Below, in pieces: positions 8,986-43,123 of a stretch of DNA of 64,000 nt. The notes below the pieces were generated by a model. That model was not told the DNA's origin. It searched no databases and saw only the letters and a list, made by a program, of their open reading frames with translations. Position 1 is the first letter of the stretch; every line of letters starts with the position of its first letter. The stretch is from Brevundimonas sp. SH203 (GTDB lineage: Bacteria > Pseudomonadota > Alphaproteobacteria > Caulobacterales > Caulobacteraceae): positions 124,001 through 188,000 of the forward strand of contig NZ_BDMM01000005.1 in NCBI RefSeq assembly GCF_002157625.1, given 5' to 3'. The translations under genes and the position numbers were made by a program.

Positions 8986-9008
8986 ATCCTCGGGTCAAGC
9001 CCGAGGAT
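8986..9008. repeat. 23-bp palindromic repeat (family A)
   Basis: ATCCTCGGG and CCCGAGGAT are separated by TCAAG. Related copies occur at 18808, 31597 and 31674, with a diverged one at 18732. It lies just upstream of xerC's start codon, within the DUF484-xerC gap. Confidence 0.85.
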
Positions 9009-18731: not shown

Positions 18732-18752
18732 CCCTCGGGCTCGCCCCGAGGG
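18732..18752. repeat. Diverged family A palindrome
   Basis: CCCTCGGG (18732-18739) and CCCGAGGG (18745-18752) form an inverted repeat just after the end of the esterase-like gene. It resembles the ATCCTCGGG...CCCGAGGAT repeat at 18808 but has a different spacer. Confidence 0.65.
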
Positions 18753-18807
18753 CCGGACGTTCCGCCGATTTGCGTCACCGTTCAGCGTAATGCCCGACCA
18801 GCCCCCG

Positions 18808-18830
18808 ATCCTCGGGTCGAGCCCGAGGAT
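18808..18830. repeat. 23-bp palindromic repeat (family A)
   Basis: ATCCTCGGG, spacer TCGAG, CCCGAGGAT. It stands between the convergent esterase-like gene and otsA, where it could fold on transcripts of either strand. Confidence 0.85.
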
Positions 18831-30130: not shown

Positions 30131-30258
30131 CGTCATTCCGGGGCGTCCGAAGGACGAACCCGGAACCCACTGGGAGATTTCCAGCGCCTGATGCCGTCGG
30201 CGTCGTGCGCGTAGTCCTGGGTTCCGGGTTCTTCGCTACGCTCAGCCCCGGAATGACG
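30131..30258. repeat. 128-bp palindromic intergenic element (family B)
   Basis: Ends are CGTCATTCCGGGG (30131-30143) and its inverse CCCCGGAATGACG (30246-30258). Inside, a second inverted pair (GAACCCGGAACCCA / TGGGTTCCGGGTTC) allows a long cruciform or RNA stem. Translated fragments of this element look like small basic ORFs but are not genes. A second copy begins at the left edge of the window. Confidence 0.85.
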
Positions 30259-30259
30259 A

Positions 30260-31306
<1,047 letters not shown>

Positions 31307-31310
31307 TCAG

Positions 31311-31430
31311 GCGTCTCCTGGGAAGGATGGAGGCGCGGGGTTCGGCCGGATCGACCGCCCCGCGCATCGGCGGGGCTTGGGATCGGGGTTCGTCGCTAGA
31401 CCTTGCGCACACCCGAAACCGCCCCGCCGA
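31311..31430 (-). promoter_or_regulatory. Candidate translational attenuator in the asd leader
   Basis: Four helices compete in the RNA between the 22-codon leader ORF and asd. H0 pairs 421-430 with 367-376 (10 bp). H1 pairs 370-376 with 357-363 (7 bp). H2 pairs 358-365 with 333-340 (8 bp). H3 pairs 329-336 with 311-318 (7 bp plus one mismatch; add 31000 to all positions) and hides four of the five bases of the AGGAG Shine-Dalgarno. Each helix excludes the next, as in a classical attenuator chain. If H0 forms, H1 is lost, H2 forms, H3 is lost and the ribosome-binding site is open. No T-run follows, so control of translation is more likely than termination. Helices were found by eye. Confidence 0.55.
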
Positions 31431-31464
31431 AGCCGGTGGTTTTCGTGGTAATCGCTTTGGTCAT
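31396..31464 (-). CDS. Putative 22-codon Thr-rich leader peptide upstream of asd
   Basis: ATG at 31464 opens a 22-residue ORF ending with TAG at 31396-31398. Translation begins MTKAITTKTTGFGG and ends SGVRKV. Five of its first ten residues are Thr, with one Ile, the amino acids made downstream of Asd. The clustered Thr codons precede the strand (31421-31430) that forms the first of a series of alternative hairpins. The ribosome-binding site is weak; an in-frame ATG at 31470 is an alternative start. A leader-peptide role is inferred from composition and position. By family knowledge such Thr/Ile-rich leaders control thr operons in enterobacteria; one for asd would be unusual. Confidence 0.5.
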   Translation of the reverse strand: MTKAITTKTTGFGGAVSGVRKV

Positions 31465-31596
31465 GAGCATGGACACGGCGACGCTCTCTAAGGGCGAGAA
31501 TCGGTCGTGTAAACCGTCTGCGGCGAAAGAAACGACGCCCAAGGAAATGAAACAGGCTTTTCACGGCAATAAAGCCGTCGCCACCCCTTCCCCGTC

Positions 31597-31619
31597 ATCC
31601 TCGGGCTTGACCCGAGGAT
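31597..31619. repeat. 23-bp palindromic repeat (family A), inverted copy
   Basis: ATCCTCGGG, spacer CTTGA, CCCGAGGAT. The spacer is the reverse complement of the usual TCAAG, so this copy is inverted relative to the one at 31674. It lies between the asd leader and the 3' end of fabB. Confidence 0.85.
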
Positions 31620-31673
31620 CGGATTGTCTGCCGCACCGCCCGCAATCCAGACGCACTGCCTGACCAACGCCCG

Positions 31674-31696
31674 GTCCTCGGGTCAAGCCCGAGGAT
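31674..31696. repeat. 23-bp palindromic repeat (family A)
   Basis: GTCCTCGGG, spacer TCAAG, CCCGAGGAT, one mismatch between the arms. It faces the copy at 31597, and the pair brackets 54 bases of sequence. A short open frame running through these repeats (31403-31663) is not a gene: its reading SSSGLTRGSD is the translated repeat. Confidence 0.8.
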
Positions 31697-31719
31697 GACG
31701 GAGGGCTGGCTGTCGTGCC

Positions 31720-32937
31720 TTAGACCTTCGACAGGATCAGTGTGCCGTTGGTGCCGCCGAAGCCGAAGCTGTTGGACATGACGTGGGTCAGTTCGCCGTC
31801 GTGGCGCTGGCGCAGGATGGGCATGCCCTCGAACGCCGGATCGAGGGTCTCGATATGGGCGCTCTCGGCCGCAAAGCCGTTTTGCATCATCAGCAGGCAG
31901 TAGATGGCTTCCTGCGCGCCCGCCGCGCCGAGCGAGTGGCCCGTCAGCGATTTGGTCGAGGAGATCATCGGCATCTGGTCGCCGAAGACGGCGCGAACGG
32001 CCTCCATCTCCTTGGCGTCGCCTACGGGAGTCGAGGTGCCGTGCGGGTTCAGATAGTCGATCCGGGGATTGCCGGCCTGCTCCAGCGCGATCTTCATGCA
32101 GCGCTGGGCGCCCTCGCCCGAGGGGGCGACCATGTCGTAACCGTCGGCGTTGGCGCCGTAGCCGGTGACTTCGGCATAGATGGTCGCGCCGCGCGCCTTG
32201 GCCCGCTCGTACTCCTCCAGCACCACGATGCCCGCGCCGCCGGCGATGACGAAGCCGTCGCGATTGGCGTCATAGGCGCGCGAGGCGACCGAAGGGGTTT
32301 CGTTGAAGTTGGACGACATGGCGCCCATGGCGTCGAACATATTGGACATGGACCAGTCGATGTCCTCGCAGCCGCCGGCGAAGACCACGTCTTGCTTGCC
32401 CCACTGGATCTGTTCGACCCCGGCGCCGATGCAGTGGGCGCTGGTCGCGCAGGCCGAACTGATCGAATAGTTGATCCCGCGCATCTGGAACCAGGTCGAC
32501 AGCACCGCCGAGGGGCCGCTGGCCATGGCCTTGGGCACCGCGAACGGGCCGATGCGCTTGGGGGCGCCCTTTTCGATGGTCGTCTGGGCCGCCTGCAGGA
32601 TCACCTGGGTCGAGGGGCCGCCCTCGCCGACGATCAGGCCGATGCGGTCGTCGCGGATTTCCTCGGCCGTCATGCCCGACGACTTCAGCGCCTCTTCGAA
32701 GGCGATGTGCGCCCAGGCGGTGCCGTTGGCCAGGAAGCGGGCGGCGCGCCGGTCGACCAGCTCTTCCCAAGGACCGATCTTGGGCGGCGCCCAGACCTGG
32801 CTGCGGAAGCCGTACTGGGCGTGATCGGCGGCATGGAGGACGCCCGAACGGGCCTCGCGCAGGGATTGGGTCACCTCTTCGGCGCCGTGGCCGATGGAGG
32901 AGACGATGCCGAGGCCGGTGACGACGACACGACGCAT
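31720..32937 (-). CDS. fabB: Beta-ketoacyl-ACP synthase I
   Basis: 405-residue condensing enzyme needed to elongate unsaturated acyl chains after FabA. The catalytic triad is clear: Cys in [12 protein letters not shown], His in [11 protein letters not shown] and His in [12 protein letters not shown]. The N terminus [16 protein letters not shown] and the GFGGTNGTL tail are typical. It follows fabA by 63 bases and is transcribed in the same direction, forming the usual alphaproteobacterial fabA-fabB operon of anaerobic-type unsaturated fatty acid synthesis. Confidence 0.97.
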
Positions 32938-41632: not shown

Positions 41633-43123
41633 ATGACCGACGACGCCCCCCTCCGCCCCCTCGCCCGCAATCCGCGCGGTTTCGCCGACAAGCGCGGGCG
41701 CGACCTGACCGCCGAACGCCGCATCGTGGCGCGCGTGTCCGAGGTCTATGAGCGCTGGGGCTTCGAGCCCTTGGAGACGCCGGCCTTCGAATACGCCGAC
41801 GCCCTGGGCAAATTCCTGCCCGACGCCGACCGGCCCAACGAGGGCGTCTTCGCGCTTCAGGACGACGCCGGATCGGACGAGCCGGGCGATTGGATGGCCC
41901 TGCGTTACGACCACACCGCGCCCCTGGCCCGGTTCGCGGCCCAGACCTGGGAGACCCTGCCCAAGCCGTTCCGCCGCTATGCCTATGGTCCGGTCTGGCG
42001 CAACGAAAAGCCCGGTCCCGGCCGCTTCCGCGAATTCTGGCAATGCGACGCCGACACCGTCGGTTCCGACCGACCCGAGGCGGACGCCGAGATCATCGCC
42101 ATGGCCTGCGAGGGTCTGAGGGGCGCGGGACTGGATGCCGGTCAGGCCCAGATCCGCGTCTCGAACCGCAAGCTGTTCGACGGTCTGTTCGACGCGGGCG
42201 GCGTGACCGAGGCGGGCCAGCGTCTGACGGCGTTGCGCGCCATCGACAAGTTCGACCGTCTGGGCTGGGAAGGCGTGGTTCAGCTTCTGGGCGAAGGCCG
42301 TTTGGATGAATCCGGCGACTACACCAAGGGCGCCCAACTGCCCGCAAAGGTCACGGCCGCCATCAAGGCGTTTCTGGCCTCGGCCAATACCCCCGGCCTG
42401 TCGCGGGCCGAGACCCTGGACGCCGTCGCGCGCTCCGGCGACCTCGGCGCGGCGGGCGAGGCGGCGCTGAACGAGCTGGCCGCCATCGACCGGGCGCTGA
42501 CCGCCATGCGGGTCGATCAGGAGGCGGTGAAGTTCGATCCGACCATCGTGCGCGGTCTGGAATATTACACCGGGGCCGTGTTCGAGGCCGAGCTGTTGCT
42601 GGACACCGTGGACGACAAGGGGCGTCCCGTCCGCTTCGGCTCCATCGGCGGCGGCGGGCGCTATGACGATCTGGTCGCCCGGTTCACGGGGCAGAGCGTT
42701 CCAGCGACCGGCTTCTCCTTCGGCGTCTCGCGTCTGGCCTCGGCCCTGCGTGCGGCTGGACGGGGCGCCGAGGATGCGGTGCGCGGCCCGGTCGTGGTCA
42801 TCGTCTTCTCCGAGGACGACATGGCCCACTATCTGAACGCGGTCGCCGAACTGCGCGCCGCCGGGATCGCCGCCGAGCTTTACCTGGGGCGGGCGGGCAT
42901 GAAGGCCCAGATGAAATACGCCGACCGTCGCGGCTCCCCGGCCGTCGTCATCCTGGGGGGCGACGAGATCGCGGCGGGCGAGGTGACGATCAAGGATCTG
43001 GACGCCGGGCGCGCCGCCGCCGCCGCCATCGCCGACAACGACGCCTGGAAGGCGGAACGGCCGGGCCAGATGAAGATCGGCCGTGAGGGCCTAGTCGCCG
43101 CCATCAAGGACATTATCGAATAA
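41633..43123 (+). CDS. hisS: Histidyl-tRNA synthetase
   Basis: 496-residue class II aminoacyl-tRNA synthetase of the longer alphaproteobacterial type. Motif 2 appears around KPFRRYAYGPVWRNEKPGPGRFREFWQCD. The histidine-A box is FDPTIVRGLEYYTGAVFEAEL, and motif 3 lies in RFGSIGGGGRYDDLVARF with VPATGFSFGVSRLA. The C-terminal anticodon-binding domain covers about 400-496. The ATG at 41633 is unambiguous. An AT-rich 9-bp hairpin (ATTATCGAA/TTCGATAAT) spans the stop codon at 43112-43134, and a candidate small RNA lies beyond. Confidence 0.96.
   Translation: MTDDAPLRPLARNPRGFADKRGRDLTAERRIVARVSEVYERWGFEPLETPAFEYADALGKFLPDADRPNEGVFALQDDAGSDEPGDWMALRYDHTAPLARFAAQTWETLPKPFRRYAYGPVWRNEKPGPGRFREFWQCDADTVGSDRPEADAEIIAMACEGLRGAGLDAGQAQIRVSNRKLFDGLFDAGGVTEAGQRLTALRAIDKFDRLGWEGVVQLLGEGRLDESGDYTKGAQLPAKVTAAIKAFLASANTPGLSRAETLDAVARSGDLGAAGEAALNELAAIDRALTAMRVDQEAVKFDPTIVRGLEYYTGAVFEAELLLDTVDDKGRPVRFGSIGGGGRYDDLVARFTGQSVPATGFSFGVSRLASALRAAGRGAEDAVRGPVVVIVFSEDDMAHYLNAVAELRAAGIAAELYLGRAGMKAQMKYADRRGSPAVVILGGDEIAAGEVTIKDLDAGRAAAAAIADNDAWKAERPGQMKIGREGLVAAIKDIIE

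Follow-up and report, generated by a model that had tools for sequence, protein, structure and literature searches.

A likely threonine-sensing leader upstream of a second aspartate-semialdehyde dehydrogenase gene in Caulobacteraceae and related Alphaproteobacteria

Control by threonine through attenuation is textbook knowledge in enterobacteria, where the thr operon attenuator of Escherichia coli, thrL (Rfam Thr_leader), senses both threonine and isoleucine and controls thrABC via an intrinsic terminator. In the antibiotic-induced translational attenuators of ermC and cat, a ribosome stalled on the leader rearranges helices and thereby frees the Shine-Dalgarno (SD) sequence of the gene.

Three further systems bear a partial likeness to the locus described here. 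In the LEU element of actinobacterial leuA, a pseudoknot has at its base a pairing between the run of Leu codons itself and the SD, and no conserved structure is reported in the same paper for the regions before actinobacterial threonine operons (PMC1262725). The trpL (rnTrpL) RNA of Sinorhizobium meliloti is described as leaderless, beginning with the ATG (PMC7298713). In Caulobacter, the ilv leader and the trpS leader CDS were recognized as leader peptides by ribosome profiling, in the bacterial family to which the window's genus also belongs; the ilv leader is described with a Rho-independent terminator (PMC4117421). The words “threonine” and “semialdehyde” are absent from the main text of that paper, and the matches to “asd” shown there are to the anti-SD.

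The locus that we compare with these systems lies in a stretch of 64,000 nucleotides from Brevundimonas sp. SH203 (contig NZ_BDMM01000005.1, positions 124,001 to 188,000; hereafter the window, by whose numbering all coordinates are given), on the minus strand between fabB (31720-32937) and an asd gene for aspartate-semialdehyde dehydrogenase (30260-31306). A short ORF rich in Thr codons is followed there by a chain of overlapping helix strands that reaches the SD of asd, and we consider it likely that the whole is an attenuator in which ribosomes sense threonine, probably together with isoleucine, and which in Caulobacteraceae acts mainly on the initiation of asd translation. The case is made by a conserved Thr/Ile-rich ORF, promoter spacing, partly covarying helices and an effect of ribosome position in a class-wide folding model. 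Since many related bacteria retain both the ORF and the hairpin chain, we very probably have before us a genuine switch by which asd is raised when threonine is short. Like thrL, it would join a leader peptide of Thr and Ile codons to alternative RNA structures at a branch of the aspartate pathway; unlike thrL, it precedes a single asd isozyme, has no U-run in Caulobacteraceae and carries the SD in its last helix. The proposed freeing of the SD recalls ermC and cat, although the inducer there is a drug and not an uncharged tRNA. In the LEU element, too, a leader peptide for an amino acid is predicted within an RNA whose structure takes in the SD of the gene (PMC1262725), but at our locus the strands form a chain. 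With S. meliloti trpL it shares an alphaproteobacterial leader ORF and may share a leaderless start, as predicted below, whereas trpL is described as responding to Trp, as attenuating transcription and as releasing an sRNA that acts in trans (PMC7298713).

The initial annotation of this DNA had known of no published Thr leader for asd in Caulobacterales, and no description for Alphaproteobacteria was found in the literature that we searched, PMC2965389 included, although an earlier mention in older subscription papers on proteobacterial attenuators is possible. Rfam 15, which contains Thr_leader, gave no leader match over the gathering score in the window and 20 relatives, the only match above it being a tRNA in L083; six matches that appeared in the window at lax thresholds, to animal microRNA and lncRNA models at a palindrome and at the leader, all fell short of their cut-offs and were rejected as chance. 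Attenuation by amino-acid leaders is known, and what is new is the combination of a Thr leader, a second Asd, a leaderless-looking ORF and an SD-masking chain without a terminator.

Conservation was assessed in 67 aligned upstream regions from Caulobacteraceae (19 from the same genus and 48 from a family search, with G208, at a contig edge, and the G032 fragment excluded) and in a broader collection of 103 leader sequences, into which some genomes entered twice (e.g., L092/L199) and which was reduced, these repeats with it, to 47 representatives at most 85% alike by script score. Left out of the latter were L082, L084, L093 and 15 loci from other Alphaproteobacteria at which an asd of the window's type has no leader (L160, L163-L166, L168, L173-L181); at L173-L174 this asd apparently lies close behind another gene.

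The ORF as first noticed opens at ATG 31464 and reads MTKAITTKTTGFGGAVSGVRKV. Its 22 codons, which include five Thr codons and one Ile codon within the first ten (MTKAITTKTT), were re-read as claimed, and so was its place just upstream of asd: the last base of the stop codon is 31396, which leaves 89 nt to the asd ATG at 31306. The start codon had to be replaced, however, since an in-frame GTG at 31476 is kept in 23 of 23 same-genus sequences and ATG 31464 in only some of these, and the leader ORF is thus taken as the 26 codons of VSMLMTKAITTKTTGFGGAVSGVRKV (31396-31476, minus strand), inside which the shorter frame lies. Is its threonine content more than chance would give? When the region upstream in the window was shuffled 200 times, no equally Thr-rich ORF arose, and across the 47 representatives the first 17 codons of the best ORF hold a mean of 4.2 Thr against 0.42 in dinucleotide shuffles, with p ≤ 0.05 in 44; our ORF finder selects the most Thr/Ile-rich ORF, and the shuffles were searched identically, which controls that choice for Thr. 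The frame is open over 22-30 codons in all 47 (finder range 14-34) and ends 81-115 nt before asd (finder range 45-145). Among the 67 family leaders there are 2-7 Thr in the first 17 residues, and Thr and Ile together number at least four. The peptide has a conserved K-[T/P]-T motif, whose second residue is T in 23, P in 22 and another residue in 2 of the 47 representatives and whose third is T in 38; the residue two before the K is T in 34 and that three before it is I in 30. At the conserved Thr positions ACC, ACG, ACT and ACA are all used, and Thr and Ile replace each other across families, so that the leader fits a sensing of threonine and perhaps of isoleucine. The predicted ORF is therefore short and rich in codons for the end product, with such codons sparse in a few leaders: L192 has one Thr and L054, L059, L088, L089 and L169 have two, and in several of these Ile outnumbers Thr.

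Upstream of the ORF, a -35-like hexamer, TTTACA (31508-31513, minus strand), stands where the conserved block of the 19-genome alignment begins, conservation being sharply lost beyond it, and a -10-like hexamer, TAGAGA (31485-31490, minus strand), follows 17 nt later. For 38 of the 47 representatives the distance from a TTTAC or TTGAC to the ORF start is 35-39 nt, and such words occur only twice in 4365 nt further upstream; in L167 and L196 the box falls at 37 nt if a neighboring in-frame ATG is the start. When sequences are aligned on the -35 box (TTTAT allowed), TA lies 17 nt after the hexamer in 39 of 39. A promoter scanner built on the E. coli-type sigma-70 consensus made no call at this leader promoter. 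From the TTTACA-17-TA spacing and usual promoter geometry, transcription would start at about the GTG codon, probably at about 31476-31478, on the start codon or no more than some two bases away, and the leader ORF therefore looks leaderless.

The four helices of the initial annotation, each sharing a strand with the next, were found at the positions claimed. The chain consists, on the minus strand, of s2 (31421-31430, within the ORF), s3 (31367-31376), s4 (31357-31365), s5 (31329-31340) and s6 (31311-31319). H0 joins s2 to s3 over 10 bp (TCGGCGGGGC/GCCCCGCCGA); H1 joins the 5′ strand included in s3 to 31357-31363 of s4 over 7 bp (GCCCCGC/GCGGGGC); H2 joins 31358-31365 of s4 to 31333-31340 of s5 over 8 bp (GCGCGGGG/CCCCGCGC); and H3 joins 31329-31336 of s5 to 31311-31318 of s6 over 8 positions that include one C.A mismatch (GCGCCTCC/GGAGACGC). 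The asd SD, AGGAG (31315-31319), forms part of s6, and its GGAG lies within H3. The stretch 31290-31470 folds with a z of -2.3 against dinucleotide shuffles, 4 of 200 folding as well, and the duplex energies in the window reach p 0.01 for H0, 0.03 for H2 and 0.10 for H3. A separate s1:s2 helix (e.g., CCCGC-UUCG-GCGGG in Caulobacter) was considered and rejected, as its contiguous pairing was no better than in shuffles (33 to 100 of 100 as good, in 16 rows).

We infer a course of events that takes in the start of transcription, stalling, the direction of the response, the level of control and a role in threonine supply. With transcription starting on the first codon of the leader or some two bases from it at most, ribosomes would load at the 5′ end of the emerging RNA. 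When charged tRNA-Thr is short, a ribosome would stall at the K-T-T or K-P-T codons, where it would cover the sequence just before s2 and leave s2 itself free; s2 could then pair with s3 (H0) and s4 with s5 (H2), and with s5 held in H2 the SD would not be sequestered and asd would be translated. When threonine is plentiful, the ribosome would come to lie over s2, s3 would pair with s4 (H1) and s5 with the SD (H3), and asd would be off.

What speaks most strongly against chance is that relatives have kept the leader. Leader ORF and helix strands are present at 67 of 67 Caulobacteraceae loci, and among the 47 representatives the duplexes are above the shuffled mean strength in 45 for H0 (p ≤ 0.05 in 33), in 46 for H2 (p ≤ 0.05 in 28) and in 45 for H3, the weakest helix, which carries a C.A mismatch in most leaders and reaches p ≤ 0.05 only in 15; in these counts the row for L057, in which the hairpin finder took H2 for H1, was kept as a failure. 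Paired changes are found in H0, H2 and, more weakly, H3. The initial annotation had proposed looking among relatives for kept Thr codons and covariation, and the outcome spoke in its favor, the Thr codons being kept and H0 and H2 showing, in an alignment of 39 of the 47 representatives made without structure (A2), 20 double-changed cells, where shuffles give 6.0 ± 1.9 and slid controls 0-6, with 94.7% of cells paired. H1 and H3 on the same alignment have 87.5% of cells paired and 9 double-changed cells against 3.0 ± 1.3 in shuffles, the +2 slid control also giving 9. Further pair types are not unusual on A2, being reached by 103 of 500 (H0 and H2) and 80 of 500 (H1 and H3) shuffles. A2 leaves out L169, L089, L083, L081, L195, L199, L200 and L196, because terminator-type or diverged leaders align badly. 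The 67-sequence family alignment shows slight covariation, with 4 cells for H0 and H2 and 2 for H1 and H3 against 0.5 and 0.2 in shuffles. Individual leaders illustrate the changes: by eye, the outer H0 pair is changed on both strands in Asticcacaulis-type leaders; in Hyphomonas-type leaders GCCCCGC/GCGGGGC becomes GTCCCGC/GCGGGAC and s2 and s5 change accordingly; and H3 has compensatory changes in L054 and L059, to GCGTTTC/GGAAACG and GCGTTTCC/GGAAATGT, and in L081, to GCATCTC/GGAGATGC.

How would the position of a ribosome alter this chain? In our folding model a footprint reaching 12 nt back and 16 nt forward from the P-site start was masked at each codon and the cost of opening the asd SD was computed. 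Over the 47 representatives this cost changed by a mean of -1.75 kcal/mol relative to no ribosome when the A site was at the codon after the K, and at codon +3 and later ones the change stayed within -0.2 to +0.3; when all RNA 5′ of the ribosome was masked as well, the dip was -2.0 to -2.2 kcal/mol with downstream footprints of 14, 16 and 18 nt. The modelled switch point, given by this dip at K-[T/P]-T, thus coincides with the conserved Thr codons. The logic of a Thr stall in the initial annotation stands, but the first Thr pair, at which it had placed the ribosome, is not by itself the key site, which is predicted to be the K-T-T/K-P-T codons beside the H0 strand. With the ribosome stalled at Thr, mean pairing was 0.75 for H0, 0.18 for H1, 0.72 for H2 and 0.43 for H3, and with the ribosome over s2 it was 0.03, 0.87, 0.11 and 0.70, respectively. 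That threonine starvation would be the on condition, as had been proposed, agrees with the modelled opening of the SD, which is best at the Thr codons. Many leaders already favor H0 with no ribosome (mean 0.57), and a drop of over 0.1 in SD pairing in the stalled state is seen in no more than 17 of the 47 when the comparison is with no ribosome and in 18 when it is with s2 covered.

In the window and its genus (23 sequences) the modelled effect at the SD is weak. H0, H1 and H2 switch, as the initial annotation had them do, and H3 is at 0.27 when stalled and 0.58 when s2 is covered, but overall SD pairing is hardly altered (0.76 stalled versus 0.77 with s2 covered), and the gain in SD opening of about 0.6 kcal/mol is spread without a sharp dip, at -0.44 to -0.58 from codon +1 to codon +5. 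With s2 covered in the window itself, the H1 plus H3 state and the H2 state are equal within 0.4 kcal/mol, and under a mask that differed slightly H2 remained at 0.94. Since the two states are nearly equal at equilibrium, the window's switch could work only through the order in which helices fold as the RNA is being transcribed. The off state had been ascribed to a ribosome at the stop codon that blocks the H0 strand, and with the footprint used this did not hold: that strand occupies ORF nt 46-55, about nt 63-90 are masked when the ribosome is at the stop, and the cost of opening the window's SD is then the same as without a ribosome (5.3 and 5.3). In the model, the off state would instead need a ribosome passing over s2 while H1 is being made. 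Mutually exclusive helices are thus seen in conserved overlapping strands and a modelled switch across the 47, weakly at the SD in the window's genus.

Judged by its sequence, the gene downstream is a second, actinobacterial-like Asd. Its 348-aa product (30260-31306, minus strand) scores 417 bits against TIGR01296 (cut-off 324), a clear asd_B, and is 68% identical to a Streptomyces Asd, above its 48-51% identity to the standard Asd of its own genome (G000:C5:218569-219567); among the 80 matches listed its relatives are mostly actinobacterial. The distribution of this type is patchy, at full length in 19 of 101 genus genomes, plus one fragment, in 57 of 199 family genomes (E ≤ 1e-100) and in 14 of 387 class genomes, the window's included (E ≤ 1e-110), and a standard asd was present in 44 of 44 tested genomes that carry it. 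No Thr-rich ORF was seen upstream of the standard asd in the 8 of 8 cases examined, and the leader was absent from the 8 actinobacterial asd upstream regions examined. Outside the family, the leader was present at 7 and absent at 6 of the 13 class matches other than the window's own; it occurs at 12 and is absent at 9 of the 21 window-type asd genes in the Hyphomonas-like family of G420, accompanies all 10 of 10 in the order to which G604 belongs, and also precedes window-type asd in named records of Hyphomonas, Novosphingobium and Sphingosinicella. Two repeats flank the locus. A long inverted repeat, CGTCATTCCGGGGC..., lies at about 30131-30258, in the gap where asd and truA run towards each other, with a similar one in L006, and a palindromic repeat with a REP-type look (CCTCGGGCTTGACCCGAGGA and its inverse) lies at 31592-31701 between fabB and the asd promoter; copies of the latter are also found at 8987-9006 and 18733-18828, giving 5 matches in the window against 0.04 expected.

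When a covariance model of the leader was searched over 149 family genomes, strong matches also appeared in genomes without window-type asd. We examined 15 places beyond window-type asd, the remaining matches being weak (E above about 0.001). At nine of the 15 (L239-L246, L248) the leader stands before another, third Asd-like lineage, five proteins of which are 60-79% identical mutually and 43-46% to the window's Asd; six of these nine leaders have at least 3 Thr at the expected place and L243-L245 are poorer (1-3). Three weaker matches, L247, L251 and L252, have His-rich leader ORFs (e.g., MKTVLHHHAHSHPTCLGGAARTRAA) with a hairpin resembling H1, and the gene that follows resembles, by eye, the window's hisS/hisZ-like gene (41633-43123), before which a His leader was looked for and none seen. 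From these sequences, the same leader plan may also serve histidine. L249 is a decayed second copy of the leader in G206 with no asd gene after it, and L250 and L253 were set aside as unassigned or chance matches.

At which level would such a switch act, and could the same observations be read otherwise? The initial annotation had noted that no U-run follows the hairpin, and this is borne out: there is none after H1 in the window, and at least 5 T within 8 nt after H1 were found in 0 of 24 Caulobacteraceae representatives (L060 alone has TTTT) and in 2 of 23 others, L169 and L081. A GC-rich hairpin with a U-run, the mark of an intrinsic terminator, is accordingly lacking in the Caulobacteraceae copies, so that control there is probably at translation, which is also the better reading for the window than termination. 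The strand logic would nevertheless be the same for classical transcription attenuation, in which H1 or an untranslated structured stretch stops the polymerase, by Rho in Caulobacteraceae or through an intrinsic terminator in relatives, with only a secondary part for the SD helix. Relatives lend this some color: L081 has a 9-bp stem at the same place followed by TTGTTTT, a sense-strand site that the scanner called terminator-like, in L169 the 9-bp stem at this place is followed by TGTTTTTT, and L083 and L089 have weaker T-rich tails. However, L083 and L169 were not called terminators (the 9-nt loop of L169 exceeds the limit of the scanner), no sense-strand terminator-like site was called in the leaders of the window or L042, and H3 has covarying changes on its SD side in several lineages (L054, L059, L081). 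For these reasons we regard transcription attenuation as possible but unlikely to be the main mode.

The remaining alternatives to a threonine-sensing attenuator would take away the role of the Thr codons altogether. It has been proposed that bacterial ribosomes reinitiate at leader genes (PMC4833913), and the leader ORF might in that case be an “antenna” for ribosomes, its Thr content without a sensing role; the 89 nt between leader stop and asd (81-115 nt in the 47) compare poorly, however, with that paper's peak at 10-11 bp, and the specific keeping of Thr codons and alternative helices makes coupling of this kind very unlikely. Much of the leader is nearly invariant within the genus, as would be expected if selection acted on RNA structure alone, for instance on an mRNA stabilizer or an unknown ligand-binding RNA, with the ORF a by-product of conserved nucleotides; but the Thr codons vary synonymously and swap with Ile, the frame is open in 47 of 47 and no Rfam family scored over its cut-off, and we find this reading quite implausible. 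GC-rich inverted repeats arise easily in GC-rich DNA, and H3 alone is weak in the window, yet a chance ORF beside chance pairing is next to negligible as an account of a leader conserved at 67 of 67 family loci with an excess of Thr and a near-constant promoter spacing.

We conclude that a threonine-sensing attenuator mainly of translation remains the likely reading, and opinion could fall evenly for or against a broader one, namely an undescribed, class-wide family of leaderless Thr attenuators that marks the second Asd in Alphaproteobacteria, is found on at least two Asd lineages, has its plan in common with His leaders in some Caulobacteraceae and exchanges terminator and SD-masking output at the same hairpin. 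With a U-run in some relatives and an SD-masking helix in others at that hairpin, one family tree would allow a shift between transcriptional and translational attenuation to be followed, and the apparent leaderless start would make this leader a simple test case for the coupling of initiation on nascent RNA to attenuation. In Alphaproteobacteria a second, lone Asd would thus be under threonine attenuation, the standard Asd being apparently free of a leader, which suggests that one Asd is kept for the needs of the cell wall and of lysine and another is under threonine control.
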